Shown: piece after piece, positions 19,621-35,002 of the stretch
Position numbering within the stretch: the stretch's first letter is position 1
Layout: each line of letters begins with the position of its first letter
Origin: Prochlorococcus marinus
GTDB taxonomy: Bacteria > Cyanobacteriota > Cyanobacteriia > PCC-6307 > Cyanobiaceae
Assembly: GCF_001180265.1 (NCBI RefSeq)
Contig: NZ_CVSW01000063.1
Span: 1-64,000 of the forward strand
Length of the DNA: 64,000 nt
Direction of reading: 5' to 3'
The notes under the pieces: model-generated
Told to the model about the DNA's origin: nothing
The model's input: the letters and a program-made list of their open reading frames with translations, nothing else
Database searches by the model: none
Position numbers and translations under genes: made by a program

Positions 19621-20986
19621 TAATTTATTAAGAGCTCCAAACCAAAGTATTGAGGAAACTGGTTATGCCTGGTACGTAGGCAACGCTAGATTAATCAATT
19701 TATCTGGACGTTTATTAGGAGCTCACATTGCTCACTCTGGACTAATAGTCTTTTGGGCGGGAGCAATGATGCTCTTTGAGGTTAATCATTTTACTTTTGA
19801 TAAACCAATGTGGGAGCAAGGTTTAATCTGTATGCCACACGTTGCAATGTTTGGTTATGGAATAGGCCCTGGTGGAGAAGTTACTGATATCATGCCTTTC
19901 TTCCAGGCAGGTGTGGTTCACTTGATAGCTTCTGCTGTACTTGGTTTTGGTGGCATTTACCATTCATTAGCAGGTCCAGAAAAACTTGAAGAAGATTTTC
20001 CATTTTTCTCCACCGATTGGAGAGATAAAAATCAAATGACAAATATCCTTGGATATCATTTGATTGTTTTAGGTGTAGGTGCATTAGCGTGGTCTGTAAA
20101 CTGGTGTTTTATTGGCGGTGCATATGACACTTGGGCACCTGGTGGAGGTGAAGTAAGACTTGTCAACCCAACATTAGATCCAAGAGTTATCCTTGGTTAT
20201 CTATTTAGATCTCCATGGGGAGGAGCTGGTTCAATAATCGGTGTTAACTCCATTGAAGATATTGTTGGTGGACATGTTTATGTGGGTATTACTGCAATCA
20301 TTGGAGGAATATTCCACATCTTTACCAAACCTTTTGGATGGGCAAGAAGAGCATTCATCTGGAATGGTGAAGGTTTACTAAGTTACGCTCTTGGTGGAAT
20401 TTGTGTAGCAAGTTTTATTGCTTCAACATTCATCTGGTTTAACAACACTGCTTACCCTTCAGAGTTTTATGGCCCAACAAATGCTGAAGCTTCACAGGCT
20501 CAAAGCTTTACTTTCCTTGTGAGAGATCAAAGAATTGGAGCTAATGTAGGTTCAACTATGGGACCAACAGGTCTAGGTAAGTATCTCATGAGATCTCCTA
20601 CTGGTGAAATTATATTTGGTGGTGAAACAATGAGATTTTGGGATTTCAGAGGTCCATGGTTAGAGCCTTTAAGAGGACCTAACGGATTGAGCCTTGAGAA
20701 AATTCAAAATGATATTCAGCCTTGGCAGGTAAGAAGAGCTGCTGAATATATGACTCATGCTCCTAACGCTTCTATCAACTCTGTTGGTGGAATCATTACA
20801 GAGCCTAATGCTGTTAACTTTGTTAATTTAAGACAATGGTTAGCTGCAGCTCAATTCTTCCTAGGATGGTTTACATTTATCGGTCACCTTTGGCATGCTG
20901 GACGTGCTAGAGCAGCCGCTGCAGGATTCGAAAAAGGAATCGACAGAAAGAGTGAACCAGCTCTAGAAATGCCTGATTTAGATTAA
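19604..20986 (+). CDS. psbC: Photosystem II CP43 core antenna protein
   Basis: A 460-residue chlorophyll a-binding inner antenna of PSII with six membrane helices and a large lumenal loop. The longest frame would start at TTG 19577, but the homologous start is GTG 19604 ([12 protein letters not shown]), preceded by a strong GAGGAGG at 19588-19594 and overlapping the psbD stop by 17 bp, as in chloroplasts and other cyanobacteria. [17 protein letters not shown] and [12 protein letters not shown] carry the lumenal loop region whose Glu and Arg contact the Mn cluster in PSII structures; the C-terminus contains [19 protein letters not shown]. Confidence 0.98.
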
Positions 20987-26531: not shown

Positions 26532-27554
26532 TTAATCCCAACCAGCATCTTTCATCAAGTTTATTGCAAGAGAGTTATTTACCCCTAGTTCATCTACAGT
26601 AACCTTATCAGGAGTAAATTCCCCAAAGTTCTTGACTATAGGGTTTTGATTAACCTCTTTTAATGGATGTTCAAAGGTAGGAGCTGCTAATCCTTTGCTG
26701 CCGCTTGGAGAAGCTAAATATTCAAGGAGCTTAATAGCTTCAGCTTTATTAGTTGCGTATTTTGCAACCCCTCCAGCACTTATATTTACATGGGCAGGGC
26801 TTGGGGTAATAACTGCTGTTCTTTGCGCATAAAGAGTATCTCTCCTGCCATTAACCCCAGCCAACATCCTTGCAACATAATAATGATTAACAATTCCTAC
26901 TCCACATTTTTTCTTAGAAACTGCTCTAATTATTGAAATATCTCCAGGGAAGAAAGGTTGAGAAACATTAGAAATCATTCCGTTTAACCAAGCCTTAGTT
27001 TCCAATTCCCCTTTATTAACTATTTGATTAGCTACTAAAGATTGATTATATGGGCTTTTTCTATTTCTTAAACATACTTTACCTTTTAAGGAGGGATCAG
27101 CTAAGTCTGTATAGTCATTTATCTTACTAATATCAACAACTTTTGGATTAGCAACCATAACTCTAACTCTTCTAGTGAGTGCATACCATTCCTTATCTTT
27201 ATCCTTGAGTCCAGTTGGAACATCATTTTCCAATGATTTTGATTCTACACTTTGGAGAAGTCCAGCTTTAGCAGCATTTGTAATTCTTGCTGCATCAACT
27301 AGCAATATTAAATCCGCCTGAGAATTCTTTCCCTCTCTTTTCAATCTTTCAATTAAAGATATTCCTGCCGCTTCTATTAGCCTAACTTTTATTCCTGTTT
27401 CTTCTGCAAATTTTTTGTATACACTTCTATCAGTATTGTAATGTCTACCCGAATAAACTCTGACTTCTTTTTCTGTTGAATTGGCTGGTAAATTTACATT
27501 AAATAAAAATGTTAATGTTAGTGCTGAGTAAAAAAGTTTTTTTAAGTTTTGCAC
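26532..27554 (-). CDS. futA: Ferric iron ABC transporter substrate-binding protein (FutA/IdiA)
   Basis: A 340-residue periplasmic iron(III)-binding protein. The GTG-initiated N-terminus has a Sec signal peptide (about 1-27, FYSALTLTFLFNVNLPANS), followed by the family start EVRVYSGRHYNTDRSVYKKF; SQADLILLVDAARITNA and CGVGIVNHYYVARML are typical, the latter carrying the tandem tyrosines that bind Fe3+ in this family. In cyanobacteria it delivers iron to FutBC and is strongly induced by iron limitation. The membrane and ATPase components are not adjacent. It is divergent from a PiuC-like dioxygenase. Confidence 0.94.
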   Translation of the reverse strand: MQNLKKLFYSALTLTFLFNVNLPANSTEKEVRVYSGRHYNTDRSVYKKFAEETGIKVRLIEAAGISLIERLKREGKNSQADLILLVDAARITNAAKAGLLQSVESKSLENDVPTGLKDKDKEWYALTRRVRVMVANPKVVDISKINDYTDLADPSLKGKVCLRNRKSPYNQSLVANQIVNKGELETKAWLNGMISNVSQPFFPGDISIIRAVSKKKCGVGIVNHYYVARMLAGVNGRRDTLYAQRTAVITPSPAHVNISAGGVAKYATNKAEAIKLLEYLASPSGSKGLAAPTFEHPLKEVNQNPIVKNFGEFTPDKVTVDELGVNNSLAINLMKDAGWD

Positions 27555-28725: not shown

Positions 28726-30021
28726 TTAGAACTTGAAAGTTGTATTCACAACATAACCAGTCATATCAGTCTCAACATCACTTGCATTCTCATGAGTACC
28801 TCCAAAAATAGCTGGAGTGACACTAATTGAATCGTTTACTTTGTATTCATAGTAAATTTCGTATAAGAATGGATCAACCTCATCATTCTCTTGTTTTTGT
28901 GGTTGACCAAAAGCGATACCAATTCTGTCATCAGGAGAGAACATATCCTGCCAGTTAAGACCTACAAAATAAGCAGTTGTATTTGAATTTGTAGCATTAT
29001 CAGTTTCAGAAGTATCATAACCTAATGAAATAGATGGAACAGCAGTTCCTGTCTCCTCTGGTCTCCACCAAGCTCTCAAACCGATATTGGTACTACTTCC
29101 ATCACCACCTCTTAATGCTCCATCATCAGAAGTGAAATAAGATGTATCAGCCCAACCGTTGTACTTATTATTTACAATGGCTGAAACAGAATATCTTGGT
29201 TGTGTATAACCAACTTGAGTTGCCCAACTAGTTTTTGTTTCGTCAGTTAAAAGACCAGTATTGATATAACTTGATCCAGATTTTGTAGTTGAATTAGATT
29301 TAGTACCGACGTTTGTACTGAATGCGAAACCATTGTCAGCTTTGTAAGCATAGCCAGCACCAGTATCTGTACTTGCACCATATGCAGCTGCGTTACCTCC
29401 AAGAGTAAACGCTTTTAAGACAGGCTTATAAATAGATGGAGTTGTGCCATGCATATAATAGTTTTCAATTTTTGGGCCTATCCAAACAGTGTGATGATCA
29501 CCAATTGGAGTTGTGTACCAAATTTTGTCAACCTTTAAATTGTCAGCATTACCATTACCAGCCTTAAGGTATGAATTTACTTCACCTTTCTGGACTGAGT
29601 ATCCTTGGTGGTTACCACTCTTAATTCTTACATAAAGATTATCATCACCAGTAAAACTTGTATTCAAGTTCATTTGGTAAGTGTAATATCCCTGAATTTT
29701 TCCGGTATAGGCATCATCGTCAGTATCGGCTTGTCCAACGGAAAAAATAGCTTTACCGTCAAGAGTAGTGGTATCTGAGAAGCTGCCTGCTTCAAATTCA
29801 TTTTGCTTAACTTCTAAGCCATCAACACGGCCTTTAAGTGTCGCAATTTCGTTACTCACTTCTTTAGTGAATGTTGTGCTATCAAATCTTTGAGCTTTAG
29901 AACTAGCACGTTCGTAGCTATTCATAGCTTCAAGATTAAAAGCTTCGGATGCCTGAGCAGCCATAGGTGATAAAACACCCAGAGCAGTACCTGCAACCAA
30001 AAGTTTTTGGAAGAGTTTCAT
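28726..30021 (-). CDS. som: Outer-membrane porin of the cyanobacterial Som type
   Basis: A 431-residue porin. Signal peptide (KLFQKLLVAGTALGVLSP, cleaved near AQA-SE), a short helical/coiled segment (about 45-75, EVSNEIATLKGRVDGLEVKQ) that in this family links to the cell wall, then a beta-barrel of alternating strands rich in Gly/Tyr/Thr ending in VVNTTFKF with the terminal Phe needed for Bam assembly. Som-type porins are the main nutrient-permeation channels of cyanobacteria, and Prochlorococcus carries several. The RBS is GAGG in GTGTGAGG, complementary to the Yfr1 sRNA motif. Terminated by the hairpin at 28691. Confidence 0.9.
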   Translation of the reverse strand: MKLFQKLLVAGTALGVLSPMAAQASEAFNLEAMNSYERASSKAQRFDSTTFTKEVSNEIATLKGRVDGLEVKQNEFEAGSFSDTTTLDGKAIFSVGQADTDDDAYTGKIQGYYTYQMNLNTSFTGDDNLYVRIKSGNHQGYSVQKGEVNSYLKAGNGNADNLKVDKIWYTTPIGDHHTVWIGPKIENYYMHGTTPSIYKPVLKAFTLGGNAAAYGASTDTGAGYAYKADNGFAFSTNVGTKSNSTTKSGSSYINTGLLTDETKTSWATQVGYTQPRYSVSAIVNNKYNGWADTSYFTSDDGALRGGDGSSTNIGLRAWWRPEETGTAVPSISLGYDTSETDNATNSNTTAYFVGLNWQDMFSPDDRIGIAFGQPQKQENDEVDPFLYEIYYEYKVNDSISVTPAIFGGTHENASDVETDMTGYVVNTTFKF

Positions 30022-30025
30022 TTTA

Positions 30026-30033
30026 CCTCACAC
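30026..30033 (-). promoter_or_regulatory. Ribosome-binding site complementary to the Yfr1 sRNA motif
   Basis: On the minus strand GTGTGAGG (30033 to 30026) is followed by TAAA and the porin ATG. It is the reverse complement of CCTCACAC, the core of the conserved single-stranded ACTCCTCACAC motif of the cyanobacterial sRNA Yfr1, which is known to repress porin (som) mRNAs in Prochlorococcus MED4 by pairing at the RBS. The match is eight consecutive bases and covers the whole Shine-Dalgarno. Confidence 0.7.
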
Positions 30034-30038
30034 GAAAA

Positions 30039-30056
30039 TACCCATAATTATGGGTA
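30039..30056. promoter_or_regulatory. 18-bp perfect palindrome in the porin leader
   Basis: TACCCATAATTATGGGTA is perfectly self-complementary and ends 6 bases upstream of the Yfr1-complementary RBS (18 bases before the start codon). It could be an operator for a dimeric repressor or activator, or form a hairpin or kissing structure in the 5' UTR. No consensus I know of is matched. Confidence 0.6.
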
Positions 30057-30148
30057 ATAAAATTGTATCGGAGGTAACTTTTTTGGGTAGAATAATTAGA
30101 TGCAGTTGAGTGTATAAAATTTTACATTAATCTATTTGGAGTTTTTTA

Positions 30149-31018
30149 TTAATTTTTAACTAATGGAAACCCCATCAATTCTCTTTCCTCAATCCAAGAT
30201 GATGCAACTTCTCTAGCTAAATTTCTAATCTTCTCAATATATTGAGCACGATCTGTAACAGAAATTACTCCTCTTGCATCAAGCAAATTAAAAGCATGAC
30301 TACATTTCAAAACAAAATCAAGCGCAGGATAAGTCAGTTTCTTTTCAGCTAAACTATTTGCCTCATCTTGGTAAATTTCAAATAATTTCCTAAGATTCTG
30401 TGGATTAGATTCAGTGAAGTTATATGTGCATTGGCTTTTTTCAAACTGAAGCCAAATATCACTATATTTCATATTTCTATTCCAATTCAGGTCCCAAATA
30501 CTTTCCTTGTCCTGTAAAAACATTGCAATACGCTCCAACCCATAAGTTATTTCAATAGGGATTGGATTACAATCTAATCCTCCACATTGCTGGAAATAGG
30601 TGAATTGAGTAACTTCCATGCCATCCAACCAGACTTCCCAACCTACTCCCCAAGCCCCGAGTGTTGGTGACTCCCAATTATCTTCTACAAATCTTATATC
30701 ATGATTTCTAGGATTAATGCCTAAAGATTCTAAAGATGTTAAATATTTTTCTTGTATTCCATCGGGTGAAGGCTTAATAATTACTTGATATTGGAAGTAA
30801 TGTTGGGCTCTATTGGGATTATCACCAAACCTTCCATCTGTAGGTCTTCTACACGGTTCTGCATATGCAACACTCCAAGGTTCTGGTCCAATAGCTCTTA
30901 AAAAAGTATGCGGATTCATAGTCCCAGCACCTTTTTCTGTATCATAAGGCTGCATTATCAGGCATCCTTCTTCGGACCAAAAATTATTTAATCTTTGAAT
31001 TATCTCCTGAAAAAGCAT
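30149..31018 (-). CDS. glyQ: Glycyl-tRNA synthetase alpha subunit
   Basis: A 289-residue alpha subunit of the heterotetrameric (alpha2-beta2) bacterial GlyRS, class [61 protein letters not shown] and [18 protein letters not shown] are characteristic blocks containing motif 2 and the ATP and glycine pockets; [11 protein letters not shown] is motif 3. The beta subunit gene is not in the window, a common separation. It is transcribed toward the porin gene with a 127-bp gap that holds the porin leader. Length normal. Confidence 0.97.
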
Positions 31019-33943: not shown

Positions 33944-35002
33944 CTAGTTTTGAGTAATTTTTGTATTTTCAATATTGTCAAAAGCTTGACCAATTTTCTT
34001 AAAGTCAAATCCCATTGCTCTTAGTGCGTGCCAAAGATGACCTTGTAAGAAAAAGAAACCCAAATAAAAATGAGTATTGGCAAGCCAAGCTCTTGAGCTA
34101 TAGGCTCCTGAACCTAAATCTACTGTATCAGTAAAATAAGGAGCGAATTCAAATTGTAGCTTTAAGGGTTCTCCATATAGATCAACTGGATATATGGTTG
34201 TATTTGAAGCACACCAAAAAGCAGCAACAAAAGCCATATAAGAAACACCAACAACTGAGTATGACAAAATTGCCTCAGCGCCAAGTAATCCTTTTCCTTT
34301 AAATTCTGTATATTCTCCAAATTGTTTAGTATAAATATGGAAAACACCTCCAATTATTTCTAGGAAAGCGAGGAAAGCATGTCCTCCCATAACGTCTTCA
34401 AGACTATCTATTTTTAAAAAATCAAATTGATGATTCCAGATAGCGGCAATATCCAAATTGTAAATAACTTGTCTTGTAGATCCTATTGCTGGATCGTAAA
34501 TACCATGAATACGAGCCCATTCAACGAACATAATTGCTCCAAGCCCAAGAAAGATTAGATGATGGCCAAGAATAAAAGTTAATTTATCTGGGTCATCCCA
34601 TTCGAAATCAAATTTTTGTGGCTTACTATTTTCTGGGTAGTCTCCAAGATCACCTGCAAATTTATTGGAATGTAATAATCCCCCGGCACCCAATACTGCT
34701 GAGAAGATTAGATGTAATGTGCAAATTACAACAATCCCATATGGTTCTGTAATAACACCATTTTCAATACCACCAATTCCTATACCCGCTAGGTGAGGCA
34801 AAACAATTGCTTTCTGTGCACCCATTGGGATACTGGCGTCGTAACGCGCCAATTCAAATAATCCAAAAGCTCCTGCCCAGAACATCATTAGGCCTGCATG
34901 AGCAGCATGAGCAGCTATGAATTTACCTGAACGGCCAACAACACCAGAATTCCCTGCGTACCAGTCATAGGTGACATCAGATTTTCCGTAAGTTTGTAAC
35001 AC
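33944..35002 (-). CDS. pcb: Pcb/IsiA-family chlorophyll-binding antenna protein
   Basis: A 352-residue six-helix antenna of the CP43 superfamily lacking the large lumenal loop, as in Pcb and IsiA. MLQTYGKSDVTYDWYAGNSG is the Pcb N-terminus; SGKFIAAHAAHAGLMMFW, GHHLIFLGLGAIMFVEWARI and the C-terminal GHLWHALRAMGFDFKKI carry chlorophyll-ligand histidines. Pcb proteins bind divinyl chlorophylls a and b in Prochlorococcus. It lies 143 bp downstream of flavodoxin on the same strand, an isiAB-like pairing suggesting iron regulation rather than the constitutive PcbA. A 24-base divergent tail (FDNIENTKITQN) closes it. Confidence 0.93.
   Translation of the reverse strand: MLQTYGKSDVTYDWYAGNSGVVGRSGKFIAAHAAHAGLMMFWAGAFGLFELARYDASIPMGAQKAIVLPHLAGIGIGGIENGVITEPYGIVVICTLHLIFSAVLGAGGLLHSNKFAGDLGDYPENSKPQKFDFEWDDPDKLTFILGHHLIFLGLGAIMFVEWARIHGIYDPAIGSTRQVIYNLDIAAIWNHQFDFLKIDSLEDVMGGHAFLAFLEIIGGVFHIYTKQFGEYTEFKGKGLLGAEAILSYSVVGVSYMAFVAAFWCASNTTIYPVDLYGEPLKLQFEFAPYFTDTVDLGSGAYSSRAWLANTHFYLGFFFLQGHLWHALRAMGFDFKKIGQAFDNIENTKITQN

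Follow-up and report, generated by a model that had tools for sequence, protein, structure and literature searches.

The DNA analysed here is a stretch of 64,000 nucleotides from Prochlorococcus marinus (the window). It carries a som-type porin gene whose start codon is preceded by the 8-mer GTGTGAGG, and the locus raises the question whether this porin is controlled by the small RNA Yfr1. Control of the som porins PMM1119 and PMM1121 of strain MED4 by Yfr1 was reportedly described by Richter in 2010. Both genes are named as Yfr1 targets in published work (Lambrecht 2019, PMC6778093; PMC3142192), and Prochlorococcus is described as very abundant and as having few regulatory proteins (PMC2518516). 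The control of som porins by Yfr1 is already established; the new elements are the glyQ-linked porins as a class of proposed targets and, at the 5′ end predicted for their mRNA, a hairpin with covarying pairs. In the open-licence PMC literature, we found no paper on the glyQ-linked class or its leader stem-loop, and none that contains both Yfr1 and GUGUGAGG. The genes around the site and the site itself are arranged as follows.

28726..30021, minus strand: som-type porin of 431 aa, ATG at 30021-30019, NCBIfam NF033921
30026..30033, minus strand: GTGTGAGG, exact 8-base complement of CCTCACAC in Yfr1 and Yfr10, overlapping the SD-like GAGG(T)
30149..31018, minus strand: glyQ, glycyl-tRNA synthetase alpha, same strand as the porin and upstream of it
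26532..27554, minus strand: solute-binding protein, same strand as the porin and downstream of it

The source assembly comprises 1.39 Mb in 120 contigs and is 84.97% complete. The porin was classified as som-type by the NCBIfam model NF033921 (por_somb; 116.6 bits, cut-off 100), and it had no Pfam match. A glyQ-linked ortholog from another genus (L138:1498-3006) matches OprB and, below the cut-off, SLH; the window porin matches neither, and its SLH region has apparently been lost or has degenerated. In all 65 ortholog loci, glyQ precedes the porin and shares its strand. The downstream solute-binding protein is presumably of the FutA/IdiA kind. Read along the minus strand, the order is ...ATGGGTATTTTC-GTGTGAGG-TAAA-ATG-AAACTCTTC, with GTGTGAGG at 30033..30026 and the ATG at 30021..30019, so that the 8-mer occupies positions -12 to -5 of the porin ATG. 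A preliminary description of this DNA had reported an exact 8-base complement of the Yfr1 motif just before the porin ATG, and this observation was confirmed. The same description had located the pairing at the ribosome-binding site, which agrees with the placement of GTGTGAGG in the translation initiation region.

The RNA partner was then sought in the genome from which the window comes. No match to the Yfr1 model RF01116 was found in the window, in line with the earlier statement that yfr1 is not within it. The gene lies at G000:C6:94608-94661 on the minus strand (RF01116, 58 bits, gathering cut-off 38). The motif ACTCCTCACAC is intact in this Yfr1, the strand reading ...CCCCATACTCCTCACACACTAAATCGCCCG..., and CCTCACAC, on whose presence in the strain's Yfr1 the preliminary description had made its claim depend, is contained in it. 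In the minimum-energy fold of a 64-nt form, the motif is unpaired, and its unpaired probability in the ensemble is 0.56-1.0 per base; with longer 5′ ends of Yfr1, three motif bases are paired in the predicted fold. Yfr1 has been defined by two stem-loops, an unpaired stretch of 16-20 nt between them that carries the ultraconserved motif ACUCCUCACAC, and a U-tail (PMC2190773). The Yfr1 of this genome has all of these elements. The genome also encodes Yfr10 (RF02362, 61 bits), which adjoins a Cyano-1 RNA (RF01701, 77.7 bits); we take Cyano-1 to be the Yfr2 family. The pair is found at L194 (G000:C6 near 67047) and is arranged as in the HL strains, for which yfr10 is reported to be adjacent to yfr2 (PMC6778093). 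Carrying the same motif as Yfr1, Yfr10 could bind the same porin site.

Interaction energies were estimated with a home-made procedure, in which the duplex with the unpaired stretch of Yfr1 and the opening energies were computed using ViennaRNA. All 58 ATG-started ORFs of the window with at least 100 aa were ranked, 40 of which gave any candidate. The porin start ranked first of the 58 ORF starts with -12.0 kcal/mol (hybrid -14.7, opening 2.7), followed by a start with -8.9. An mRNA begun at the predicted +1 gave -11.7 kcal/mol. The RNA-RNA interaction prediction that the preliminary description had proposed for the strain's own Yfr1 was, by this estimate, in favour of the porin. For PMM1119 and PMM1121, IntaRNA energies of -13.42 and -10.54 are given in PMC3142192, which were obtained by a different method from our estimate. 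The accessibility of the site in the porin mRNA is predicted to be partial, with unpaired probabilities of 0.31-0.88 per base. At the window site, the T after GAGG prevents a ninth pair with Yfr1. The base at this position is T or C in the glyQ-linked class, and it is A, which would allow a ninth pair, in most family sites among the matches listed (genus rows excluded).

An 8-mer may match a small RNA by chance. GTGTGAGG occurs once in the window (both strands; 0.39 expected), and the bare 8-mer is not significant because at least one copy was found in 32 of 100 shuffles. Its position and its conservation led us to reject a chance match, though the 8-mer alone is unremarkable. In the whole assembly, GTGTGAGG-N(1-12)-ATG was found twice, namely at this porin and on the strand opposite yfr1. 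Within the genus, 231 of 266 genomes contain GTGTGAGG-N(2-8)-ATGAA, including 84 of the 87 more complete ones, and the reversed pattern used as a control is present in 5 of 266 (read off the tabulated counts). For the family, 272 genomes of at least 90% completeness (own genome excepted) were searched. GTGTGAGG-N(2-9)-ATGAA was present in 256 of the 272 and in 31 of 34 genera; the reversed control was present in 24 genomes (also read off the tabulated counts), with at most two matches each. We also used the genus pattern to fetch a single locus per genome from 30 of these 231 genomes, among them that of the window, and all 34 pattern matches in these loci open porin-like frames (E below 1e-3). 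These matches suggest that Yfr1-type pairing sites are a widespread mark of som porins in the examined family, beyond the two porins of MED4.

To compare leaders independently of the 8-mer, porin loci were collected by six porin peptide patterns with the leader sequence disregarded. This protein search gave 66 related contigs, 65 from Prochlorococcus and one from an uncultured Synechococcaceae cyanobacterium. L069 was dropped from the 66 fetched loci because the start is missing from it, and the window was added, which resulted in 66 leaders comprising 63 distinct 90-base stretches. The eight bases of GTGTGAGG are invariant in 66 of 66 leaders (65 protein-fetched loci and the window). This result, and the repeated occurrence of the site ahead of som porins in both genus and family, answer positively the question of conservation in other som leaders that the preliminary description had posed. 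Between -60 and -13, the top base of most leader columns accounts for a fraction of 0.4 to 0.8, and for the two bases immediately 5′ of GTGTGAGG the values are 0.64 and 0.74. Invariance in the leader is not peculiar to the Yfr1 site, as the TAAA that follows and the first codons come close to it: TAAA and most first-codon bases reach 92-100%, and ahead of the site T is conserved to 98% at -4 and to 94% at -3 relative to it. With the right arm of the leader hairpin described below, these elements span 86-100% in the 66 leaders. By its leader, the glyQ-linked porin falls into a different class from the remaining GTGTGAGG porins of the genus. The 8-mer is also found ahead of porins that have other spacers and mostly 24-44% protein identity.

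Such conservation would also be expected if GTGTGAGG were a mere Shine-Dalgarno element (GAGGU) in a conserved start region, with GTGT simply inherited and the Yfr1 motif resembling the 16S anti-Shine-Dalgarno sequence. The latter is CACCTCC, with which GAGGT pairs. The site lies at the normal Shine-Dalgarno distance, the first porin codons are almost as conserved as the site, and some porins keep the site although their genomes gave no RF01116 match. In addition, GAGG-N(2-9)-ATGAA is 1.1- to 1.4-fold above its reversed control in all 13 genus genomes compared, with 125 versus 100 in the own genome. However, GTGT is superfluous for Shine-Dalgarno pairing and yet invariant in all 66 leaders, whereas the two preceding bases vary. 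The enrichment of plain GAGG is also small compared with that of GTGTGAGG, and the identical 8-mer stands ahead of porins with different spacers and low protein identity. We therefore regard an explanation by ribosome binding alone as improbable for the entire 8-mer, part of which may nevertheless be kept for that purpose only. Because GTGTGAGG recurs before porins and plain GAGG is so little enriched, the 8-mer looks more like a porin mark than like the ordinary ribosome-binding site of the genus. The label 'Shine-Dalgarno' used in the preliminary description holds insofar as GAGG(T) is SD-like and normally spaced; the identity of the element as a Shine-Dalgarno sequence is presumptive. In PMC6778093, Shine-Dalgarno sequences are stated not to be commoner than chance in Prochlorococcus MED4 and MIT9313.

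Upstream of the site, the leader contains further conserved elements.

30062..30067, minus strand: predicted -10 element TACAAT, in most orthologs GATACA followed by A/G and T, putative function
30055, minus strand: predicted transcription start (A), placed by its spacing to the -10 element only
30039..30056, minus strand: H1, inverted repeat TACCCAT-AATT-ATGGGTA, with which the porin mRNA is predicted to begin as a 5′ hairpin

A consensus scan found no full sigma-70 site or promoter at the porin. The inverted repeat begins 13 bases past the start of the conserved TACA box. A perfect stem of at least five pairs is present in 58 of 66 leaders (88%) compared with 7.8% of shuffles, with mean stems of 5.7 and 3.2, where the shuffles preserve base composition only and our own nulls ignore shared ancestry. 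For pair-by-pair analysis, the left arm was placed solely by its distance to the box and the right arm by a rule, namely the last G that is followed by T or C; L020 was given a rule of its own. In the 56 distinct leaders, standard pairing reaches 96-100% at pairs 0-3. Covariation is seen at pairs 4 and 5, with 42 of 55 (shuffle mean 26.2) and 23 of 29 (14.5), and the two outermost pairs are unsupported (36 of 56 versus 34.8; 25 of 56 versus 25.3). Sliding the right arm lowers pairing from 262/279 to at most 151/273. Changed arms include CCCAAA/TTTGGG, CCTAT/ATAGG and ACTCAAT/ATTGAGT. An RNA hairpin fits better than a protein-binding DNA site because the arms change in step and the loops vary. 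H1 is also found in orthologs of other genera (L138, L140, L142, L144, L145 and L151, with L144 and L151 near-identical). At least five pairs occur in 7 of 16 other-genus leaders and in 10 of 25 tandem and other HL leaders, where the shuffle fractions are 0.15 and 0.18. With its covariation and its fixed distance to the -10-like box, H1 is a candidate ompA-like 5′ hairpin, and its position suggests that the porin mRNA begins with it.

A hairpin downstream of glyQ might instead be the terminator of that gene. This would fit the constant presence of glyQ upstream on the same strand (65 of 65 loci) and a terminator-like scan of the window, which scores H1 (1 found, 0.2 expected). Against this stand the conserved -10-like box 13 bases ahead of the stem, a T-run that is broken in many orthologs (for example GGGCTACTTTAG), and three g22 genomes in which glyQ is upstream and the best leader stems are nevertheless just 4, 4 and 5 pairs. 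A role as terminator in place of a 5′ hairpin of the porin mRNA thus seems unlikely to us, and H1 could serve as both.

Conservation extends into the reading frame. At 29998-30018, the early porin codons are conserved at the nucleotide level beyond the needs of the protein, including a rare CTC. Codon choice is 95-100% identical at codons 2-5 and 8, and 62% and 52% at codons 9 and 10, compared with a mean codon identity of 68% for 123 conserved codons beyond codon 30. CTC occupies codon 3 in 62 of 65 sequences and makes up 7% of the Leu codons in these porin genes. A second hairpin may be formed in this early stretch with few synonymous changes.

29997..30010, minus strand: H2 (tentative), CCAAA-AACT-TTTGG, codons 4-9

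The arms of H2 are CCAAC/GTTGG, in other genera CCAGC/GCTGG and in the window CCAAA/TTTGG. Compared with a synonymous-codon null, the mean stem is 4.70 versus 3.72, the largest of 200 nulls being 4.01 (71 sequences, ancestry ignored). Covariation within the genus is weak, as 42 of 500 shuffles reach the score, and H2 is absent when the initial 120 nt of the window porin mRNA are folded at minimum energy. We keep H2 as a tentative hairpin candidate.

Genomes without a recognizable Yfr1 offer a view of the site's dependence on this RNA. RF01116 matched 255 of 272 family genomes under strict filters, by which some weak matches were lost. All 17 genomes without a match contain at least one ACTCCTCACAC, and the reversed control occurs in 12 of the 17 (read off the tabulated counts). 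The occurrences in g23 and g24 include places with a hairpin and a U-run after the motif; in six g23/g24 loci scanned, the Rfam Yfr10 model gave no match at E 0.01. Among these genomes without an RF01116 match, the glyQ-linked porin keeps GTGTGAGG in G380 and G381 (g23). In G382 and G383 (g24) it has TTGTGAGG (7 of 8 bases), and another porin has GTGTGAGG. G384 (g24) gave zero pattern matches, and its best porin match, L149, has TTGTGAGG. In genus g30 (G402-G408), none of the seven genomes has an RF01116 match, and the three that were searched gave no match to the window porin at E 1e-8. We had considered a co-loss of the site with Yfr1 as a natural experiment; its outcome is mixed and a co-loss is unsupported, with g23 keeping GTGTGAGG and g24 having TTGTGAGG. 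The porin site is apparently not strictly Yfr1-dependent, because some genomes without an RF01116 match keep it in porins. As judged from these sequences, the pattern of presence and absence neither proves nor excludes dependence on Yfr1.

The same data bear on the possibility that Yfr10, or another small RNA with ACUCCUCACAC, is the main partner in place of Yfr1, which would imply dark- or light-dependent control. Yfr10 is present in the own genome, its detection in SS120 has been published (PMC6778093), and the motif is retained in all 17 genomes without an RF01116 match, in g23 and g24 with copies followed by a hairpin and a U-run. On the other hand, the MED4 porins were validated with Yfr1, the reversed control also occurs in 12 of these 17 genomes, and none of the six g23/g24 loci matched the Yfr10 model. 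A role of Yfr10 would also not be exclusive of Yfr1. We consider a main role for Yfr10 rather doubtful.

Taken from sequence comparison and folding, Yfr1 very probably controls the window porin. The preliminary description had called the gene a likely Yfr1 target, and this is supported by an intact cognate Yfr1, a mostly unpaired motif, the top-ranking energy and an invariant site. The explanation that we favour, and hold to be probably correct, is that Yfr1 pairs with GUGUGAGG and lowers translation, that Yfr10 can act at the same site, and that a Yfr2-type RNA brings relief. The porin mRNA would start close to the gene with a short putative 5′ hairpin, after which come a U-rich stretch, then GUGUGAGG and finally the AUG. 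Over 8 bp, from -12 to -5, GUGUGAGG would pair with the unpaired CCUCACAC of Yfr1, and the duplex would cover the SD-like GAGGU and the landing place of the ribosome, leading to less translation. Yfr10, having the same motif, could probably act there as well. The Yfr2-type RNA (Cyano-1) encoded beside Yfr10 would pair with Yfr1 and Yfr10 and relieve repression, as published for PMM1121. In E. coli, Yfr1 is reported to have lowered expression of a PMM1121-GFP fusion 4.7-fold, and Yfr2 restored it (PMC6778093). For the window porin, we infer repression, its direction and its degree; the mechanism is transferred from MED4.

The window porin resembles PMM1119 and PMM1121 of MED4 in protein family, small RNA motif and translation start region. 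Unlike these, it is linked to glyQ, has the spacer TAAA and pairs over 8 bp. The tandem class of the genus, which from its gene arrangement we infer to be the PMM1119/PMM1121 type, has spacers resembling AAATTT and may form a ninth pair. The next closest porin of the own genome, L003 (G000:C10:184170-185339, minus strand), reads GTGTTAGG-AAATTT-ATG with one mismatch to Yfr1, and related strains have GTGTGAGG-AAATTT at the corresponding porin. In Nostoc PCC 7120, Yfr1 has predicted envelope targets including a homolog of the MED4 porins, and mostly repression was reported in an E. coli reporter (PMC6974561). This case shares with ours the small RNA and outer-membrane protein targets; however, Nostoc PCC 7120 is a distant cyanobacterium with a larger and different target set. 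Among enterobacteria, small RNAs of the MicF/MicC type pair near the ribosome-binding site of porin mRNAs and use Hfq. The likeness lies in pairing near a porin ribosome-binding site, whereas the RNAs and the porins are unrelated and Hfq belongs to MicF/MicC. A 5′ stem-loop slows the decay of the E. coli ompA mRNA, which like the window porin mRNA encodes an outer-membrane protein and has a 5′ hairpin; unlike in ompA, H1 is short and its 5′ placement is predicted.

The som mRNA PMM1121 is listed among the longest-lived transcripts of MED4 (PMC2897979). A more speculative reading, which we think has little chance of being right as a whole, is that the glyQ-linked leader keeps but silences its message. 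H1 would guard the mRNA and, perhaps together with the early-codon hairpin, hold the Yfr1/Yfr10 site exposed; Yfr1 or Yfr10 would mask the start, so that the message is masked and not destroyed, and Yfr2 would free it upon a change in light or nitrogen. If true, a cell that has few protein regulators could adjust its porins fast and in a reversible manner. The conserved leader structure makes porin regulation by a nearly constitutive small RNA directly testable.

Some additional observations concern phages and other RNAs. A search of viral contigs for the window porin gave no match. Cyanophage S-SRM01 (L103, a Synechococcus phage) carries a som-type porin with 30.5% identity, and in this one phage no GTGTGAGG was found on the strand of the porin within a 7.2-kb stretch. 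A phage porin free of Yfr1 control would be of interest, if true. Within the window, two matches to the Rfam family IsrR were found, at 20018-20201 (minus strand, 156 bits) and at 34448-34600 (plus strand, 55 bits). The latter lies opposite ORF 33944-35002, which looks to us like a chlorophyll-binding antenna protein, and the IsrR matches are possible antisense RNAs.
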